This document shows positions 9,723 through 62,804 of a stretch of DNA of 64,000 nucleotides, one piece after another. This stretch comes from Pseudomonas wenzhouensis (lineage in GTDB: Bacteria; Pseudomonadota; Gammaproteobacteria; Pseudomonadales; Pseudomonadaceae). How positions within the stretch are numbered: the stretch's first letter is position 1; each line of letters opens with the position of its first letter. The stretch spans positions 1,984,001-2,048,000 of the forward strand of contig NZ_CP072610.1 in the NCBI RefSeq assembly GCF_021029445.1, read 5' to 3'. Both the position numbers and the translations under genes were made by a program. The notes beneath the pieces are model-generated. The model saw nothing but the letters and a program-made list of their open reading frames with translations. It searched no databases and was not told the origin of the DNA.

Positions 9723-10430
9723 ATGGCCGATGTTCTGATCCTGACGCATATCGATTATTGCCCGCCCGCTCACCTGGCGCAGGTGCTGCAGACGCGTGGC
9801 TGCAGTTTCGACGTGCTGCGCGTCGACCTGGGTGAACTGCACGGTTACGACCTGGCGCGGCCCAAGGCAGTTGCCGTGATGGGCGGGCCGATGAGCGTCA
9901 ACGACCCGCTGCCCTGGATCGCCGAGGAAGTGGCGGCGCTGCAGCATTTTATCGCGCGCGACATACCCATCATCGGCCACTGCCTGGGCGGCCAACTGCT
10001 GGCCAAGGCGCTGGGCGCCAGCATCCGCCGCATGCCTTACACCGAGGCCGGTTGGCAGCGCATGCAGCGCCGTTCAGAGGCAACGGACAGTCCCTGGCTG
10101 GCGCATCTGCCCGAGTCGTTCAGCATCTTCCAGTGGCATGGCGACACCTTTGCCCTGCCTGACGGCGCCCAGCCGCTGCTGAGCAGCCACTGGTGCGACA
10201 ACCAGGCCTTCGCCTGGGGTGACAGGGTACTGGCGTTGCAAGGGCATCCGGAGATGACTGAGGAGTTGATCGCGCTCTGGCTCGACCACTGGGCACACCT
10301 GCTCGATGCCAGCCAGCCCAGCCAGCAACGTATCGACGAGATGCGCGAAGGCCTGAGCGAGAAGGTCAGGGCACTGAACCAGGTGGCCGAGGGTTTCTAC
10401 ACGCATTGGCTGAAACTGGCTGGACTTTGA
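9723..10430 (+). CDS. Class I glutamine amidotransferase domain protein
   Basis: A 235-residue single-domain triad glutamine amidotransferase of the GMP-synthase-like group. The nucleophile elbow is 'IIGHCLGGQLLAKALG' (Cys87), an oxyanion glycine pair lies in 'AVMGGPMSVND', and His-Glu come from 'LQGHPEMTEEL'. GGAGG at 9713-9717, five bases upstream, fixes the ATG at 9723. No synthetase partner is adjacent, so it probably acts as a free hydrolase or gamma-glutamyl-type enzyme; the real substrate is unknown. The gene ends 43 bp before the IS110-family element. Confidence 0.85.
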   Translation: MADVLILTHIDYCPPAHLAQVLQTRGCSFDVLRVDLGELHGYDLARPKAVAVMGGPMSVNDPLPWIAEEVAALQHFIARDIPIIGHCLGGQLLAKALGASIRRMPYTEAGWQRMQRRSEATDSPWLAHLPESFSIFQWHGDTFALPDGAQPLLSSHWCDNQAFAWGDRVLALQGHPEMTEELIALWLDHWAHLLDASQPSQQRIDEMREGLSEKVRALNQVAEGFYTHWLKLAGL

Positions 10431-10479
10431 TCCCCATTCGAGGCGCGGCTTCTATGGTTGGACTGCTATGCAGTAATTA

Positions 10480-10558
10480 CATGGACTCGCCCACGCCGAG
10501 GCGTCAATGCGCCACGGTGGCAGTCTAAGAAGCCAACGGCAGCGAGGGCGAGTCCATG
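10480..10558. repeat. 13-bp inverted repeat pair spanning the IS leader and transposase start
   Basis: CATGGACTCGCCC at 10480-10492 is repeated as its exact complement at 10546-10558, ending on the ATG of the transposase. The outer member is the element's left inverted repeat; the inner member is an extra copy in the orientation of the right end. In RNA the two could pair and hide the start codon. Confidence 0.75.
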
Positions 10559-11659
10559 AAAAAGCATACAGCAACTAATCAATCCCAGGCCTTAAACGAT
10601 CTATCGGCCTGCACGACAGTGGCAGTCGATCTTGCCAAGCGGGTCTTTCAGGTGGCGGGAGAAGACGTTCTTGGTCAGGTGCGTTACGAGGCGCGGATCA
10701 AGTCGCGTGAGGCGTTCTACGAGTTTCTGTGCAAGTTGCCGCCGAGTGTCGTCGTGCTGGTTGAAACTGGCCCAGGTGCTCAGGCGTGGGCACGGCAGCT
10801 ACAGGGGCAAGGCAACCTGGCGCGGATTCTTCCGGCTCGTCTCGTCGAGGGTCACCGCAGCGGTGCGAAGAATGATCGTAACGATGCCCTGTCGATCTTG
10901 CGCGCCGGTCGCGATAGCAAGATTTCAGCCGTGCCCATCAAAAGCGCTGCCTCGCTGGCCATGCAGGCGCTGCATCGCGCTCGGCAGGGTTATGTGCGTC
11001 GGCGTACGGCGATGAGTAATCAGATGCGCGGTTTGCTGCTGGAGCACGGCGTGGCTCTGGCGCAAGGCGATGCGGCTATCAGCCACGTGATACCGAGGGT
11101 GCTGGAAGATGCAACGCAGCCACTGCCGGAGATACTGCGGGAGTTGATCGACGAATTGCTGGGTGAATGGCGGCAATTGGGCGAACGCATCAACGTCTTG
11201 AGCGGGCGCTTGGAAGCTGCTGCGAACGCGGACAAGACCGCGAAACGACTGATGACGGTGCGCGGAGTCGGCCCGATCATCGCCACCGCGCTGCTGGCCA
11301 AGCAAACCGAACCTGAACGTTTCGCCAATGCCCGCTTATATGCGGCTTACTTCGGCATGGTGCCTGATCAGCACAGCAGCGGAGAAAAGATCCGCCTGGG
11401 CAAGATGAGCAAGCGAGGCGATGGCTACATGCGCAGCCTGATGATCCAGGGCGCGCATGCGGTCCTCCGACAACTACGGCCTGATTCGCAGCAACCGGAT
11501 GATCGCCGCTTGCTGGGCTGGCTGAGTCGCCTGGGGCGCAAAGAGGCGGCGGTGAGGTTAGCCAACCGCAACCTACGGATCGCCTGGGTGCTGCTACAGA
11601 ATGAACAGACTTATCAACGCCAGCCAGTTAATGACAGGCAGGCGGAAATGAGTCACTGA
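10556..11659 (+). CDS. IS110/IS1111 DEDD transposase
   Basis: A 367-residue recombinase. The N-terminal RuvC-like DEDD domain shows Asp25 in 'AVDLAKRVF', Glu70 in 'VETGPG' and Asp107/Asp110 in 'KNDRNDALSI'. The C-terminal Tnp20 domain has 'MTVRGVGPIIATALLA' and 'YFGMVPDQHSSGEKIRLG' with the conserved Ser pair. Full length and uninterrupted, so probably active. An additional copy of the inverted repeat covers its start codon (10546-10558). Family enzymes use a guide RNA made from the element's own non-coding end. Confidence 0.95.
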   Translation: MKKHTATNQSQALNDLSACTTVAVDLAKRVFQVAGEDVLGQVRYEARIKSREAFYEFLCKLPPSVVVLVETGPGAQAWARQLQGQGNLARILPARLVEGHRSGAKNDRNDALSILRAGRDSKISAVPIKSAASLAMQALHRARQGYVRRRTAMSNQMRGLLLEHGVALAQGDAAISHVIPRVLEDATQPLPEILRELIDELLGEWRQLGERINVLSGRLEAAANADKTAKRLMTVRGVGPIIATALLAKQTEPERFANARLYAAYFGMVPDQHSSGEKIRLGKMSKRGDGYMRSLMIQGAHAVLRQLRPDSQQPDDRRLLGWLSRLGRKEAAVRLANRNLRIAWVLLQNEQTYQRQPVNDRQAEMSH

Positions 11660-11897
11660 TCCACCGAGTTCTGCCACCGGGGCGCGAAGTCGCTCCAACC
11701 TCTGCTAGAAAACATTGACCCCAGGTAAGACCGTTGCGGATTGATGCCTTGGCTCCTACTGGCCTTCGAGGTCTGAATGTAATAGGCATACCGCAAGCTC
11801 ACACAATGTTGGCCAGAAGCTGATGACAGCTTCCTCGAATAGGCCTGATACATAGATGCAGCCGGGTAGCAGTGTTGAAAAGCAGGTTTGACAGTGG
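11660..11897 (+). ncRNA. Candidate seekRNA/bridge RNA region of the IS1111 element
   Basis: Non-coding segment between the transposase stop and the right inverted repeat. IS1111-type elements are known to encode their guide RNA here. GGCTCCTACTG at 11751-11761 is exactly complementary to CAGTAGGAGCC, the insertion site reconstructed by joining 10471-10473 to 11913 onward. About 16 bases later, ATGTAAT (11777-11783) is complementary to ATTACAT in the element's own left end (10476-10482). This is the arrangement expected of a target-pairing and a donor-pairing segment. Transcript ends and fold were not determined. Confidence 0.6.
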
Positions 11898-11992
11898 GGG
11901 CGAGTCCATACATAGGAGCCCCGCCCTGGGGCGAGGCCTTTGCGGCGCCAGGATCTAGAGTCGTATGCGTCTGGGCATCCCGTCTTGCGCAA

Positions 11993-13540
11993 CTAAACCA
12001 GTCGCCACCTATGCGGCAGCAGCTCCGCAATCTCACTTGCCCGCTGCGTCGGCAGGCGCGTGAGGACGTCCTTCAAATAGGCGTACGGGTCATGCCCGTT
12101 GAGTCGAGCTGACTGGATCAAACTCATGATCGCCGCTGCCCGTTTACCGCTGCGCAGTGAACCTGCAAAGAGCCAGTTCTTGCGCCCCAACGCCCATGGC
12201 CGGATCTGGTTCTCTGCCCAATTATTGTCAATGGGTACGGCGCCGTCATCGAGATAGCGCGACAGCGCCGTCCAGCGTTTGAGGCTGTAATCCAATGCTT
12301 TGCTGATGGCCGAGCCATCGTGCACAAGTAGGCGCTGGGTGATCATCCAGGCATGCAAAGCGTCCATCACCGGTACGGCTTTCTCTTGTCGTATTCGGCG
12401 GCGTAAATCCGGTTCTAGGTCGCGGACTTCATGCTCGATTTCGTACAGCAGCTGGATGTACCTCAAGGCCTGCTCGGCAAGCTGGCTTTTATTGGTGGCG
12501 TGTAGCTCGAAGAATTTGCGCCGGGCGTGGGCCATGCAGCCGATCTCGGTGACACCTTGCTCGAAGCTGGCCTTGTAGCCTGCGAAGTCGTCGCAGACCA
12601 GATTGCCATTCCACTGACCAAGAAAATTGCGCGCATGCTCGCCGGCACGGCTGGGACTGAAGTCGTACACCACGGCCTTCAGATCGGCGAAGGGTGTGGT
12701 GCTGTAGGCCCAGACGTAAGCCCGATGGGTTTTCTTCTCGCCTGGGGTGAGCATTTGCACCGGGGTTTCGTCAGCGTGGATCACGCGTTGGCCCAGCACG
12801 GCTTCGCGCAGGGCATCGACTAGCGGCTGGAGCTGCACGCCGGTTTGTCCGACCCACTGCGCCAGTGTCGAGCGAGCGATGGCCAGGCCGGCACGGCCAA
12901 AGATTTTCTCTTGCCGATATAGTGGCAAGTGGTCGGCGAATTTGGCCACCATCACGTGAGCCAGAAGGCCGGCGGTTGGGATGCCCTTGTCTATCACCTG
13001 AGCCGGAACCGGTGCCTGGATCAGGGTTTCGCACTGATCGCAGACCCATTTGCCACGGATGTGCCGCTCAACGGTGAACACGCCCGGTGTGTAGTCGAGT
13101 TTCTCGCTGACATCCTCACCGATACGCTTGAGCGCGCAACCGCACTGGCAGTGGCTGTTATCGGGTTCATGGTGGATCAGAGTGCGTGGAAACTGTGGCG
13201 GCAAGGCGGTGCGCTTAGGTTTTTGCCGAACCTCAGTCGAAGCGGGAGCAGGTTTCAGCGCTTCAAGTTCTGCTTCGATGGCCGCAATGTCGGTGTCGAC
13301 CAGGTCATCAAGCAGACTGACTTGATCCGGGCTCAATTGCTCGCTGCGCTTGGCAAACTTGCAGCGCTTGAGCTGTGCAATCTCGTGGGTCAGCTTTTCG
13401 ATAAGCGTTTGGTCGCGGTGGATCTTCTTGCCCATTGTCTCGACTTTCTGATCGAGACTCTCGACACGTTGCATCAACTGCGCCGCCAGAGCGCGCAGTT
13501 GTTCAGGGGTCAGTTGGTCTAGATTGGGCAGCGAAGTCAT
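11993..13540 (-). CDS. tnpC: IS66 transposase TnpC
   Basis: The catalytic protein of the IS66 element, 515 residues. It has an N-terminal leucine-rich coiled region, a zinc-binding 'CQCGCALKRIGEDVSEKLDY' and 'WVCDQCE', and a DDE core: Asp in 'VIHADETPVQML', Asp in 'LVCDDFAGYKAS' and Glu in 'NNWAENQIRPWALGRKNWLF'. The start at 13540 (MTSLPNLDQLTPEQL) is more plausible than an upstream in-frame codon. Frame complete. Confidence 0.95.
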   Translation of the reverse strand: MTSLPNLDQLTPEQLRALAAQLMQRVESLDQKVETMGKKIHRDQTLIEKLTHEIAQLKRCKFAKRSEQLSPDQVSLLDDLVDTDIAAIEAELEALKPAPASTEVRQKPKRTALPPQFPRTLIHHEPDNSHCQCGCALKRIGEDVSEKLDYTPGVFTVERHIRGKWVCDQCETLIQAPVPAQVIDKGIPTAGLLAHVMVAKFADHLPLYRQEKIFGRAGLAIARSTLAQWVGQTGVQLQPLVDALREAVLGQRVIHADETPVQMLTPGEKKTHRAYVWAYSTTPFADLKAVVYDFSPSRAGEHARNFLGQWNGNLVCDDFAGYKASFEQGVTEIGCMAHARRKFFELHATNKSQLAEQALRYIQLLYEIEHEVRDLEPDLRRRIRQEKAVPVMDALHAWMITQRLLVHDGSAISKALDYSLKRWTALSRYLDDGAVPIDNNWAENQIRPWALGRKNWLFAGSLRSGKRAAAIMSLIQSARLNGHDPYAYLKDVLTRLPTQRASEIAELLPHRWRLV

Positions 13541-13621
13541 GCCGCCGATTTTGCCCGAGCAGGCTAAACCCGACGAGAGGCTCATCGGACAATTGCACGG
13601 TCAGGCAGGCCATGGCAGGCA

Positions 13622-13957
13622 TCACAGAATAGAAATTGCGCTATCCGGGCCAAGTCGTTGCCAGGGTAAACCCAGCACCAGGGCGTGTAGTTGTTCGGCA
13701 CCCAATTCCATCTGAGAGCCGTGTCGAGAACCGGGCCAGAAGAACTTGCCTTGATGCAGGCGCCGCGCCGCCAACCAAATACCCAACCCGTCGTGCACCA
13801 GCACTTTCATCCGATTGGCGCGGCGATTGGCAAACAGATAAGCACAGTGCGGCTGCGCCGCACCGAACACCGCCACCACCCGCGCCATTGCGGTGTCGGT
13901 GCCAGCACGCATGTCCATCGGCTCGGTGGCAAGCCAGATGGAGTCGATGCGGATCAT
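13622..13957 (-). CDS. tnpB: IS66 accessory protein TnpB (Orf2)
   Basis: A 111-residue protein of the IS66 Orf2 family, required together with TnpA for transposition but of unknown biochemical role. The signature is 'MRAGTDTAMARV' followed by 'CAYLFANRRANRMKVLVHDGLGIWLAARRLHQGKFFWP'. Its ATG overlaps the tnpA stop in an ATGA arrangement, so translation is coupled. Confidence 0.93.
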   Translation of the reverse strand: MIRIDSIWLATEPMDMRAGTDTAMARVVAVFGAAQPHCAYLFANRRANRMKVLVHDGLGIWLAARRLHQGKFFWPGSRHGSQMELGAEQLHALVLGLPWQRLGPDSAISIL

Positions 13958-14286
13958 CGCAGCAGATCTCGCAGAAAGGTCGCGCAGGCAGCGGCGCTTT
14001 CGGTCGGCCAGTTCACTTTGATGGTACCGCGCGGGTGTGGGATTTCCAGACAGATAGTCGATGACGCGGAGTCCGACTTTGCCCCGATAGCCTGCAAAGA
14101 CAGAGGAATGAAAGCAGGTTGCAGCGCCATGGCTTTCTGCGTGTGCACTCGGATCCATTTATGGACGAGGTTTGCGTTGAGGCTGTGGCTCAGCGCAACG
14201 CTGGCAATCGAGGCCCCGGGCTGGGCGCACTCTTGAATAATCTGGGCCTTGAAGGATCTGGAGTAGGAACGGCGTTGTGGCTGCAT
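13954..14286 (-). CDS. tnpA: IS66 accessory protein TnpA (Orf1)
   Basis: A 110-residue DNA-binding protein with an IS3/IS66-Orf1-type helix-turn-helix ('RSYSRSFKAQIIQECAQPGASIASVALSHSLNANLVHKWI'). It is the first gene of the tnpABC operon. The nested IS5-family element lies 23 bp upstream of its ATG and separates it from the native leader and inverted repeat, so its original promoter is probably cut off. Confidence 0.92.
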   Translation of the reverse strand: MQPQRRSYSRSFKAQIIQECAQPGASIASVALSHSLNANLVHKWIRVHTQKAMALQPAFIPLSLQAIGAKSDSASSTICLEIPHPRGTIKVNWPTESAAACATFLRDLLR

Positions 14287-14308
14287 GAAAGACCCGCTTA
14301 AAAGGCTA

Positions 14309-15163
14309 GGGTCTGTTGCCGTTTCACATGGGTAACCAGAGAAAGGCACAGGCCATGGCCACGACGCTTTCGTAATTTCTCTTGAGTTTGTCGAACCGAG
14401 ATGCCACAGCCCGGTAGTGCTTTAGCCGGGCGAAGGCGTTCTCCACCAAGTGCCGATTGCGGTAAAGACCTCTGTCCAGATCCGCGTTGCCTTTCACGGA
14501 GTTACGCCTTCTCGGGATCACGGCCTTGGCCCCTTGTTGCTCAATCTGCTCCCGAACTCTCTCGCTGTCATAGCCCTTATCCGCGACGATGGTTTCTGCC
14601 TCCGGGAGCTTGGCAATCAATGCGGGAGCCTGGGTGCAATCATTGATTTGACCGCCCGTAATTTCAAACTCGATGGGCAGTCCATGAGCATCAACTGCCA
14701 GGTGAATCTTGCTGGTATTGCCAGCTCGACTTTTTCCTATGGCCTCATCGTTGCCACTGGCAGCACCTGCACTGTGCTGGTGAGCCTTGGCATAGCTGCC
14801 ATCAATGAACACCCATTCCATGTCAGGCTGCGCCACAAGCACCTTGAAAACCTTGAGCCATTTTCCAGTTGCGGACCACGCATTGAAGCGTTTGTAGACC
14901 TTATTCCAGTTCCCGAACGCCTTGGGTAGATCTCTCCAGGGGCATCCCGTACGCATGCGGTACAGCATGCCCTCCACGGTCATTCGTAGATCACGCTTGT
15001 TGTAGATGGCCTTGTGCAGCAGAATTTCCCGCAGCTTCGACCAATGCTCATCACTGAGCAGTAATCGGGGCATTGCAAACTCGTATCGATGTTGGGTCAG
15101 AGCTTCAAAGATACGAGTTTGCTCATATATATCAATTGGTTAGCACGAAACGGCAACAGACCC
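14309..15163 (-). mobile_element. IS5-family element nested in IS66
   Basis: An 855-bp element with perfect 17-bp terminal inverted repeats GGGTCTGTTGCCGTTTC (14309-14325 and its complement at 15147-15163). A TA dinucleotide flanks each end (14307-14308 and 15164-15165), the duplication typical of the IS427 subgroup. It encodes one leftward transposase. Its position inside the IS66 leader shows that it arrived after the IS66. Confidence 0.9.
14324..15073 (-). CDS. IS5-family (IS427-like) transposase
   Basis: A 249-residue DDE transposase in a single frame, from 'MPRLLLSDEHWSKLREILLHK'. Catalytic residues are visible in 'VFIDGSYAKAHQHSAGA', 'TIVADKGYDSERVREQI' and 'HLVENAFARLKHYRAVASRFDK'. 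Most IS427-group elements make the protein by frameshifting between two frames; here a single uninterrupted frame codes for all of it. Confidence 0.94.
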   Translation of the reverse strand: MPRLLLSDEHWSKLREILLHKAIYNKRDLRMTVEGMLYRMRTGCPWRDLPKAFGNWNKVYKRFNAWSATGKWLKVFKVLVAQPDMEWVFIDGSYAKAHQHSAGAASGNDEAIGKSRAGNTSKIHLAVDAHGLPIEFEITGGQINDCTQAPALIAKLPEAETIVADKGYDSERVREQIEQQGAKAVIPRRRNSVKGNADLDRGLYRNRHLVENAFARLKHYRAVASRFDKLKRNYESVVAMACAFLWLPM

Positions 15164-51221: not shown

Positions 51222-51297
51222 GTCCCCTTCGTCTAGTGGCCTAGGACACCGCCCTTTCACGGCGGTAACAGGGGTTCGAGTCCCCTAGGGGACGCCA
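51222..51297 (+). tRNA. tRNA-Glu (TTC), first copy
   Basis: A 76-base cloverleaf with encoded CCA: acceptor GTCCCCT/AGGGGAC, anticodon TTC in loop CTTTCAC, T-arm GTTCGAG. Pairs with the following tRNA-Gly at 14 bp. Confidence 0.97.
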
Positions 51298-51311
51298 ATT
51301 CAAGTTGCACT

Positions 51312-51387
<76 letters not shown>

Positions 51388-51432
51388 AAATTTCGAAATG
51401 CTGCTTTTGCAGGGTTTCAAGCGAAGTTCCAG

Positions 51433-51508
51433 GTCCCCTTCGTCTAGTGGCCTAGGACACCGCCCTTTCACGGCGGTAACAGGGGTTCGAGTCCCCTAGG
51501 GGACGCCA
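51433..51508 (+). tRNA. tRNA-Glu (TTC), second copy
   Basis: Identical to the copy at 51222, including the 14-bp spacer after it, so the Glu-Gly unit was duplicated in tandem with a 211-bp period. Confidence 0.97.
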
Positions 51509-51522
51509 ATTCAAGTTGCACT

Positions 51523-51598
<76 letters not shown>

Positions 51599-62743: not shown

Positions 62744-62779
62744 TCCGTGAAAAATGCCGCTTGGACAATGCGGCCATTG

Positions 62780-62804
62780 TAGGAGCCCCGCCCCGGGGCG
62801 AGGC
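62780..62804. repeat. TAGGAGCCCCGCCC palindromic intergenic repeat
   Basis: A GC-rich imperfect palindrome with CGCCCCGGGGCG at its centre. A near-identical copy at 11913-11937 is the sequence bordered by the IS1111-type element, so this one shows what that target looks like uninterrupted. Confidence 0.65.

Follow-up and report, generated by a model that had tools for sequence, protein, structure and literature searches.

The question raised by this locus is whether the non-coding DNA that follows the transposase gene of an insertion sequence specifies the site into which the element inserts and, if so, with how many letters. A sequence-only reading of the window (the whole 64,000-nt stretch of DNA that was analyzed) had identified an IS1111 element and assigned to its 3' segment an 11-nt guide for its own insertion site. 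We hold with high confidence that the element is of the IS1111 type and that its 3' segment encodes a guide of the seekRNA or bridge-RNA kind, aimed at the REP repeats of the host. The mechanism is that of the published IS1111 seekRNA and IS110 bridge RNA systems (PMC11187229, PMC11208160), which makes the locus as such an ordinary one; that elements of this kind target REP has likewise already been published.

Structure of the Element

The element occupies positions 10474–11912 of the + strand (1439 bp). It begins with a 7-bp terminal extension, TAATTAC (10474–10480), followed by the left subterminal inverted repeat ATGGACTCGCCC (10481–10492), and ends with the right subterminal inverted repeat GGGCGAGTCCAT (11898–11909) and a 3-bp extension, ACA (11910–11912). 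The repeats are perfect over 12 bp, within the range of about 11–13 bp that is typical of the IS1111 family, and the extensions of 7 and 3 bp, found in all seven full copies of the element in its own genome, are a family feature also, as is the non-coding region of 253 bp (11660–11912) 3' of the transposase gene. The six other copies differ from that in the window by one to three bases. The transposase gene (10556–11659, + strand) encodes 367 residues with DEDD_Tnp_IS110 and Transposase_20 domains (matches to PF01548 and PF02371), and the product scores 268 bits against the NCBIfam model NF033542, "IS110 family RNA-guided transposase" (cut-off 140). It is a DEDD (RuvC-like) transposase with the C-terminal G--P----S(T)G motif of the family, present as GMVPDQHSSG at residues 267–276. 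The motif begins with GM, whereas GL is written for the IS1111 family in PMC11187229, and the protein is longer than the 330–350 residues quoted there, a descriptive rather than a defining feature. The repeats, the extensions and the DEDD transposase thus bear out the earlier identification. The IS110 type proper, with a left-end bridge RNA and very short repeats, does not fit the predicted right-end RNA segment and the 12-bp repeats.

A search of plasmid DNA with the element gave no close match and three distant, weak records, and in a search of plasmid proteins all of the best 5000 records listed had less than 60% identity. Adjoining the element are IS66-type-like open frames (11993–14349, - strand), and a DDE transposase-like open frame lies at 14324–15073 (- strand); both were named by eye. 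An Rfam search of the whole window at gathering thresholds returned four tRNAs only; tRNA-Glu(TTC) and tRNA-Gly(GCC) are duplicated in tandem at 51222–51598, with 211 bp between them.

Insertion Sites

The copy in the window interrupts a REP-type repeat, TAGGAGCCCCGCCCTGGGGCGAGG, which continues at 11913–11936 (+ strand) and has its first G at 10473. The joined flanks of another copy, at position 2852660 of the genome (L004), correspond to uninterrupted DNA in the sister genome G254 (1686600–1686805, 99% identity), and this empty site is exact: the junction shows no gain or loss of bases and no target duplication. An empty site for the window copy was also sought in G254 and none was found; near the gene of its left flank there is no such site, since TAGGAGC does not occur there within 1001 bases. 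When the joined flanks of a further copy (L006) were searched in 57 relatives, only pieces of REP were found outside its own genome. Within the window, a target of the same form, GTAGGAGCC, lies unoccupied at 62779–62787 (+ strand) inside a REP-type repeat, and REP doublets of the form GTAGGAGCC ... GGCTCCTAC are seen in joined flanks and in an array of a relative.

Guide-Target Match at the Window Locus

Joining the flanks of the window copy gives ATGCAG|TAGGAGCC, and the 11-nt complement reported earlier, GGCTCCTACTG, is exactly where it had been placed, at 11751–11761 of the + strand, its single occurrence within the window. It had been called improbable by chance. Shuffling the whole window produced the 11-mer in 5 of 100 cases, and a junction-spanning match of at least 11 letters on either strand arose in 4 of 1000 dinucleotide-shuffled versions of the 253-nt non-coding segment, so that the match is indeed unlikely but, for a single locus, not extreme. 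The other copies in the genome are more informative about its length. All seven lie in the same kind of target, with the right flank TAGGAGCC throughout, whereas the letters at −3 to −1 are CAG in the window and GTG, CTG, TCG, GTG, TTG and CCG elsewhere. Since the letters at −3 and −2 vary, the seven insertions share no more than 9 of the 11 bases. The guide is therefore not 11 but 9 nt long, namely GGCTCCTAC at 11751–11759 (+ strand), complementary to G|TAGGAGCC; the final G of the longer match (11761) lies in the apical helix of the consensus structure described below. The two extra letters are scaffold that fits the window copy by accident.

Agreement of Guides and Flanks among Relatives

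Relatives were collected in two sets. The first comprised 33 loci from named genome contigs, of which 18 were used and 15 were left out as truncated, distant or not delimited. For the second, a covariance model built from eight sequences, including that of the window, was run on two overlapping draws of 398 genomes each and matched 22 genomes in the draw from the genus and 25 in that from the family. Ninety-eight of the places found were fetched and 82 used; the 16 dropped (L176–L191; model E values from 7e-6 to 8e-4) lacked the same inverted repeat or were not delimited. Further model matches were not used, many being at contig edges and some weak, and those in G128 are TH41 loci that had already been counted. 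Together with the seven copies in the genome of the window, 107 delimited elements were obtained, 106 of them distinct (L150 and L018 are one element recorded twice), and the internally deleted copies L034 (762 bp) and L113 (1377 bp) were retained in the counts. Among the dropped loci, L183–L188 (in G593 and G577) are weak model matches with a different inverted repeat, ATGGACTCTCCC, and their flanks resemble integron attC ends.

The 107 elements carry 11 different guides. At −1 the guide matches the flank in all 97 usable rows, and at +1 to +8 the two agree in 107, 106, 106, 105, 103, 103, 104 and 104 of 107, respectively. Outside this stretch agreement drops to background at −2 (14/96) and +9 (18/107), the value at −3 (60/96) is at the level of non-cognate pairs, and additional pairing on the left side at −3 and −4, for which the relatives were searched, found no support. 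Non-cognate pairs of guide and target agree at a rate of 0.27 at +8 and 0.64 at +6. Every element's segment was located by searching for TAC and then GGC. This procedure fixes the guide letters at −1, +1 and +2, columns that carry no covariation; the covariation that counts as evidence lies at +3 to +8. All nine positions agree in 99 of 107 elements, a count in which ten rows with no usable left flank were scored as agreeing at −1, and the proposal that the segment after the transposase is the target guide is thereby supported. Grouped by genome and guide, the elements form 29 rows (two of which, Schlor and G611, are one genome), and 28 of them agree, as compared with a mean of 4.3 and a maximum of 12 when the guides are permuted.

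Eight elements are off their guide (L100, L105, L113, L129, L138, L153, L156 and L168). In L105 (G254:C1:1791524-1793506), the terminal 73 bp at the right end are present twice in tandem, and the second unit begins at an internal TAGGCCTG directly after ACA, which looks like a joining of the end to a TAGG site inside the element. The genome G263 contains eight copies (L138–L145) with the guide CGCTCTTAC, and these lie in a different repeat that begins with TAAGAGCG in seven cases and TAAAAGCG in one, with shared sequence continuing after this start. REP of the GTAGGAGC type is therefore not the sole target.

These observations bear on the possibility that the transposase alone recognizes the foot of REP and that the matching segment was captured from REP and has no guide function. 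REP-binding proteins exist, the insertion target is the foot of the repeat, and GGCTCCTAC also occurs at the end of REP doublets in relatives. Against this, guide and target co-vary at +3 to +8 over 11 guides, the surrounding scaffold remaining unchanged, and the co-variation holds for the eight G263 copies in their other repeat; we regard this explanation as very improbable, and the guide reading is retained.

Predicted RNA Structure

The structured core of the predicted guide RNA was modeled over positions 11733–11865 (+ strand), which are the limits of the modeled stretch. In the consensus structure, the guide forms one strand of an internal loop bounded by the helix 11744–11748/11785–11789 and the apical helix 11761–11764/11770–11773. 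In an alignment of 26 sequences, 96.1% of the cells are paired, as compared with 29–43% for versions of the structure slid along the sequence, and 9 of the 27 pairs have changed on both sides. None of 500 shuffles reached the observed value on four of five measures of the structure; on the fifth, further pair types, 41 of 500 did. This test leans towards the structure, since the alignment had itself been fitted to the model. Folding of the non-coding segment as a single sequence was indecisive (z 0.03 relative to shuffles). Folding had been suggested as a check on the guide, and its outcome is divided: the single-sequence fold is no better than that of shuffled sequences, and the predicted internal loop that holds the guide is supported by covariation in the consensus.

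Probable Second Target Segment and Segments Matching the Element Ends

A second segment, ATGTAAT (11777–11783), had been recognized as the reverse complement of ATTACAT at the left end (10476–10482). The complementarity is real, but pairing to the donor end does not fit the relatives, in which GTAA is constant on the opposite strand of the loop in 26 of 26 aligned RNAs and the left ends of the elements fall into seven types. The constancy of GTAA is by construction in the agreement counts because GTAA served to locate segments. The region is probably better read as a second target segment that matches the bottom strand at TG|TA; the segment TGTA (11778–11781, + strand) is the same as the top strand at that junction, and the letter of this segment for position −2 agrees with the target in 75 of 96 rows. 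The IS1111 layout, a complement of the top strand followed by a match to the bottom strand, is thus found here with a firm first part (11751–11759) and a short second part (11778–11781), the bottom-strand match of only about 4 nt being shorter than in the elements of PMC11187229.

The probable donor segments lie further 3'. At 11803–11807 (+ strand) the window element has ACAAT, and the equivalents CCAAT, CTGAT, CCGAT and CGAT go with the left ends TAATTGG, TAATCAG, TAATCGG and TAATCG, respectively, so that the segment appears to follow the left end in relatives. Of the 93 rows with a reading for both segment and left end, two of them the duplicate L018/L150, 70 show a full fit, a count taken by eye from the tally. 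The fit extends to 4 of 5 letters in seven rows with TAATTGA or TAATTGT and in two Burkholderiaceae rows, and to 3 of 5 in the 14 elements with TAATTAC, including the window copy. The segment ATACATA (11848–11854, + strand), which probably corresponds to the right end, is identical to the right junction ATACA|TA. Among 90 tallied rows that end in ACA, it is ATACATA in 84, different in 1 and not found in 5; 15 further rows are outside this count. In two elements that end in ATA, the RNA has ATATA, after which one of them reads TA and the second AA; TA appears to be a shared core.

Predicted Circle Junction and Transposase Start Region

When the ends of the element are joined in silico they read TTGACA-17-CATAAT, in which TTGACA (11888–11893, + strand) and CATAAT, which lies across the joined ends, would form a −35/−10 pair with a 17-nt spacer in the predicted circle. 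In 82 rows from relatives, with the spacing fixed at 17, the −10 sequence is CATAAT or TATAAT in all 82 and the −35 sequence is exactly TTGACA in 14. A scan for promoters and terminators in the integrated element (10300–12000) identified neither a promoter-like site nor a terminator.

A third copy of the inverted repeat, GGGCGAGTCCAT at 10546–10557 (+ strand), overlaps the start codon of the transposase gene. The hairpin predicted between the left repeat (10481–10492) and this copy (10481–10558; −42.9 kcal/mol, z −4.85) could mask the ribosome site. The exact form of the third copy precedes ATGAAAAA in 33 of 86 rows, according to a loose tally. This strong hairpin over the start of the gene, together with the small RNA of about 180 nt that ISPpu9 of Pseudomonas putida makes in the sense direction at its 3' end and to which an antisense RNA pairs, as described in PMC8450116, would suit a 3' RNA that mainly regulates expression of the transposase, with the target match being secondary. 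Such a role predicts no covariation of guide and target, and for the IS1111 elements examined in PMC11187229 the RNA is reported to be indispensable to transposition; we give a mainly regulatory RNA even less credence than recognition by the transposase alone, although regulatory and guide roles need not exclude each other. Least credible of all is a match arising by chance, for which the few segment shuffles that reach 11 letters at a single locus can be cited; it is refuted by the same fit in six further copies in the genome and in relatives with other guides.

Comparison with Known Systems

The guide reading places the element with the IS1111 seekRNA elements described by Siddiquee et al. 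(2024; PMC11187229), in which ISEc11, ISPa11, ISKpn4 and ISPst6 share a layout determined by experiment. The features in common are a DEDD transposase, subterminal inverted repeats with 7- and 3-bp extensions, and a non-coding region after the transposase gene with top- and then bottom-strand target matches; a promoter at the circle junction is predicted here. That source also describes the circle promoter, the targeting of REP by ISPa11 of P. aeruginosa, which the window element resembles by description, and natural redirection of the guide between ISEc11 and ISXne4. As in the IS621 bridge RNA (Durrant et al. 2024; PMC11208160), the target is matched on both sides of an internal loop and segments of the RNA match the ends of the element; the same source mentions donor-binding letters in a multiloop for IS1111 RNAs. 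The IS621 RNA comes from the left end, whereas that of the window element would come from the right end of an element with long subterminal repeats, and sequence similarity of the transposase to the IS621 protein is limited to residues 228–297. ISPpu9 and ISPpu10 of P. putida KT2440 are IS110-class elements described as using one REP position, with seven copies each (PMC1525189, PMC8450116). ISPpu9 is similar by description in its 3' small RNA and structured 5' leader (PMC8450116); unlike the window element, both are described as having a 2-bp repeat where they insert and as lying at another REP position, between bases 9 and 10.

Proposed Mechanism

The element would leave its site as a circle, the joined ends of which would form a promoter for both the transposase and the guide. 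We infer that the RNA is transcribed, processed and bound by the transposase. The guide at 11751–11759, on one strand of the internal loop, would base-pair with G|TAGGAGCC on its top strand, the sequence with which the REP-type repeats of the host start. Across the loop, a short segment of about TGTA (11778–11781) would pair with the bottom strand of that junction. Transposase and guide RNA would then insert the circle between the G and the TA of the repeat with no duplication.

Guides and REP Repeats of the Host

Six 9-mers named by guides were counted in 22 genomes. G021, G469, G677 and G611, the guides of which are outside these six, were left out of the census, leaving 18. The 9-mer of the genome's own guide is the commonest of the six in 12 of 18 genomes (permutation mean 4.9; 1 of 50000 permutations reached 12) and reaches 100 copies or more in 16 of 18 (permutation mean 7.4; none of 50000 reached 16); the genomes share ancestry, so these permutations do not give a clean probability. 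For example, GTAGCAGCT occurs 238 and 222 times in the two genomes that have the matching guide, and 11–31 times in the other 20. A different 9-mer of the six is commoner in G181, G274, G103, G263, G045 and G128; the guide's 9-mer has 35 copies each in G263 and G203, and the sole element in G045 sits away from the 9-mer of its guide. In the genome of the window itself, GTAGGAGCC has 141 copies and is not commoner than its reversed control (146). The census suggests that guides follow the REP type of the host. That a single IS1111 lineage has been retargeted repeatedly through small changes in the 9-nt guide, each naming a REP subtype that is abundant in its host, is a proposal to which we assign about even chances; no paper on such co-adaptation of guide and host REP was found in the open-licence PMC literature.

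The relatives constitute a natural data set in which 11 pairs of guide and target on one RNA scaffold fix the guide at 9 nt (−1 to +8). The same set indicates the letters that match the ends of the element and supplies pairs already tested in nature for guide design, and the fit of guides to host REP makes natural reprogramming testable. If the proposed retargeting is correct, the guide loop would evolve as a trait of adaptation to the host, and the pool of REP in the host would decide where the element can live.
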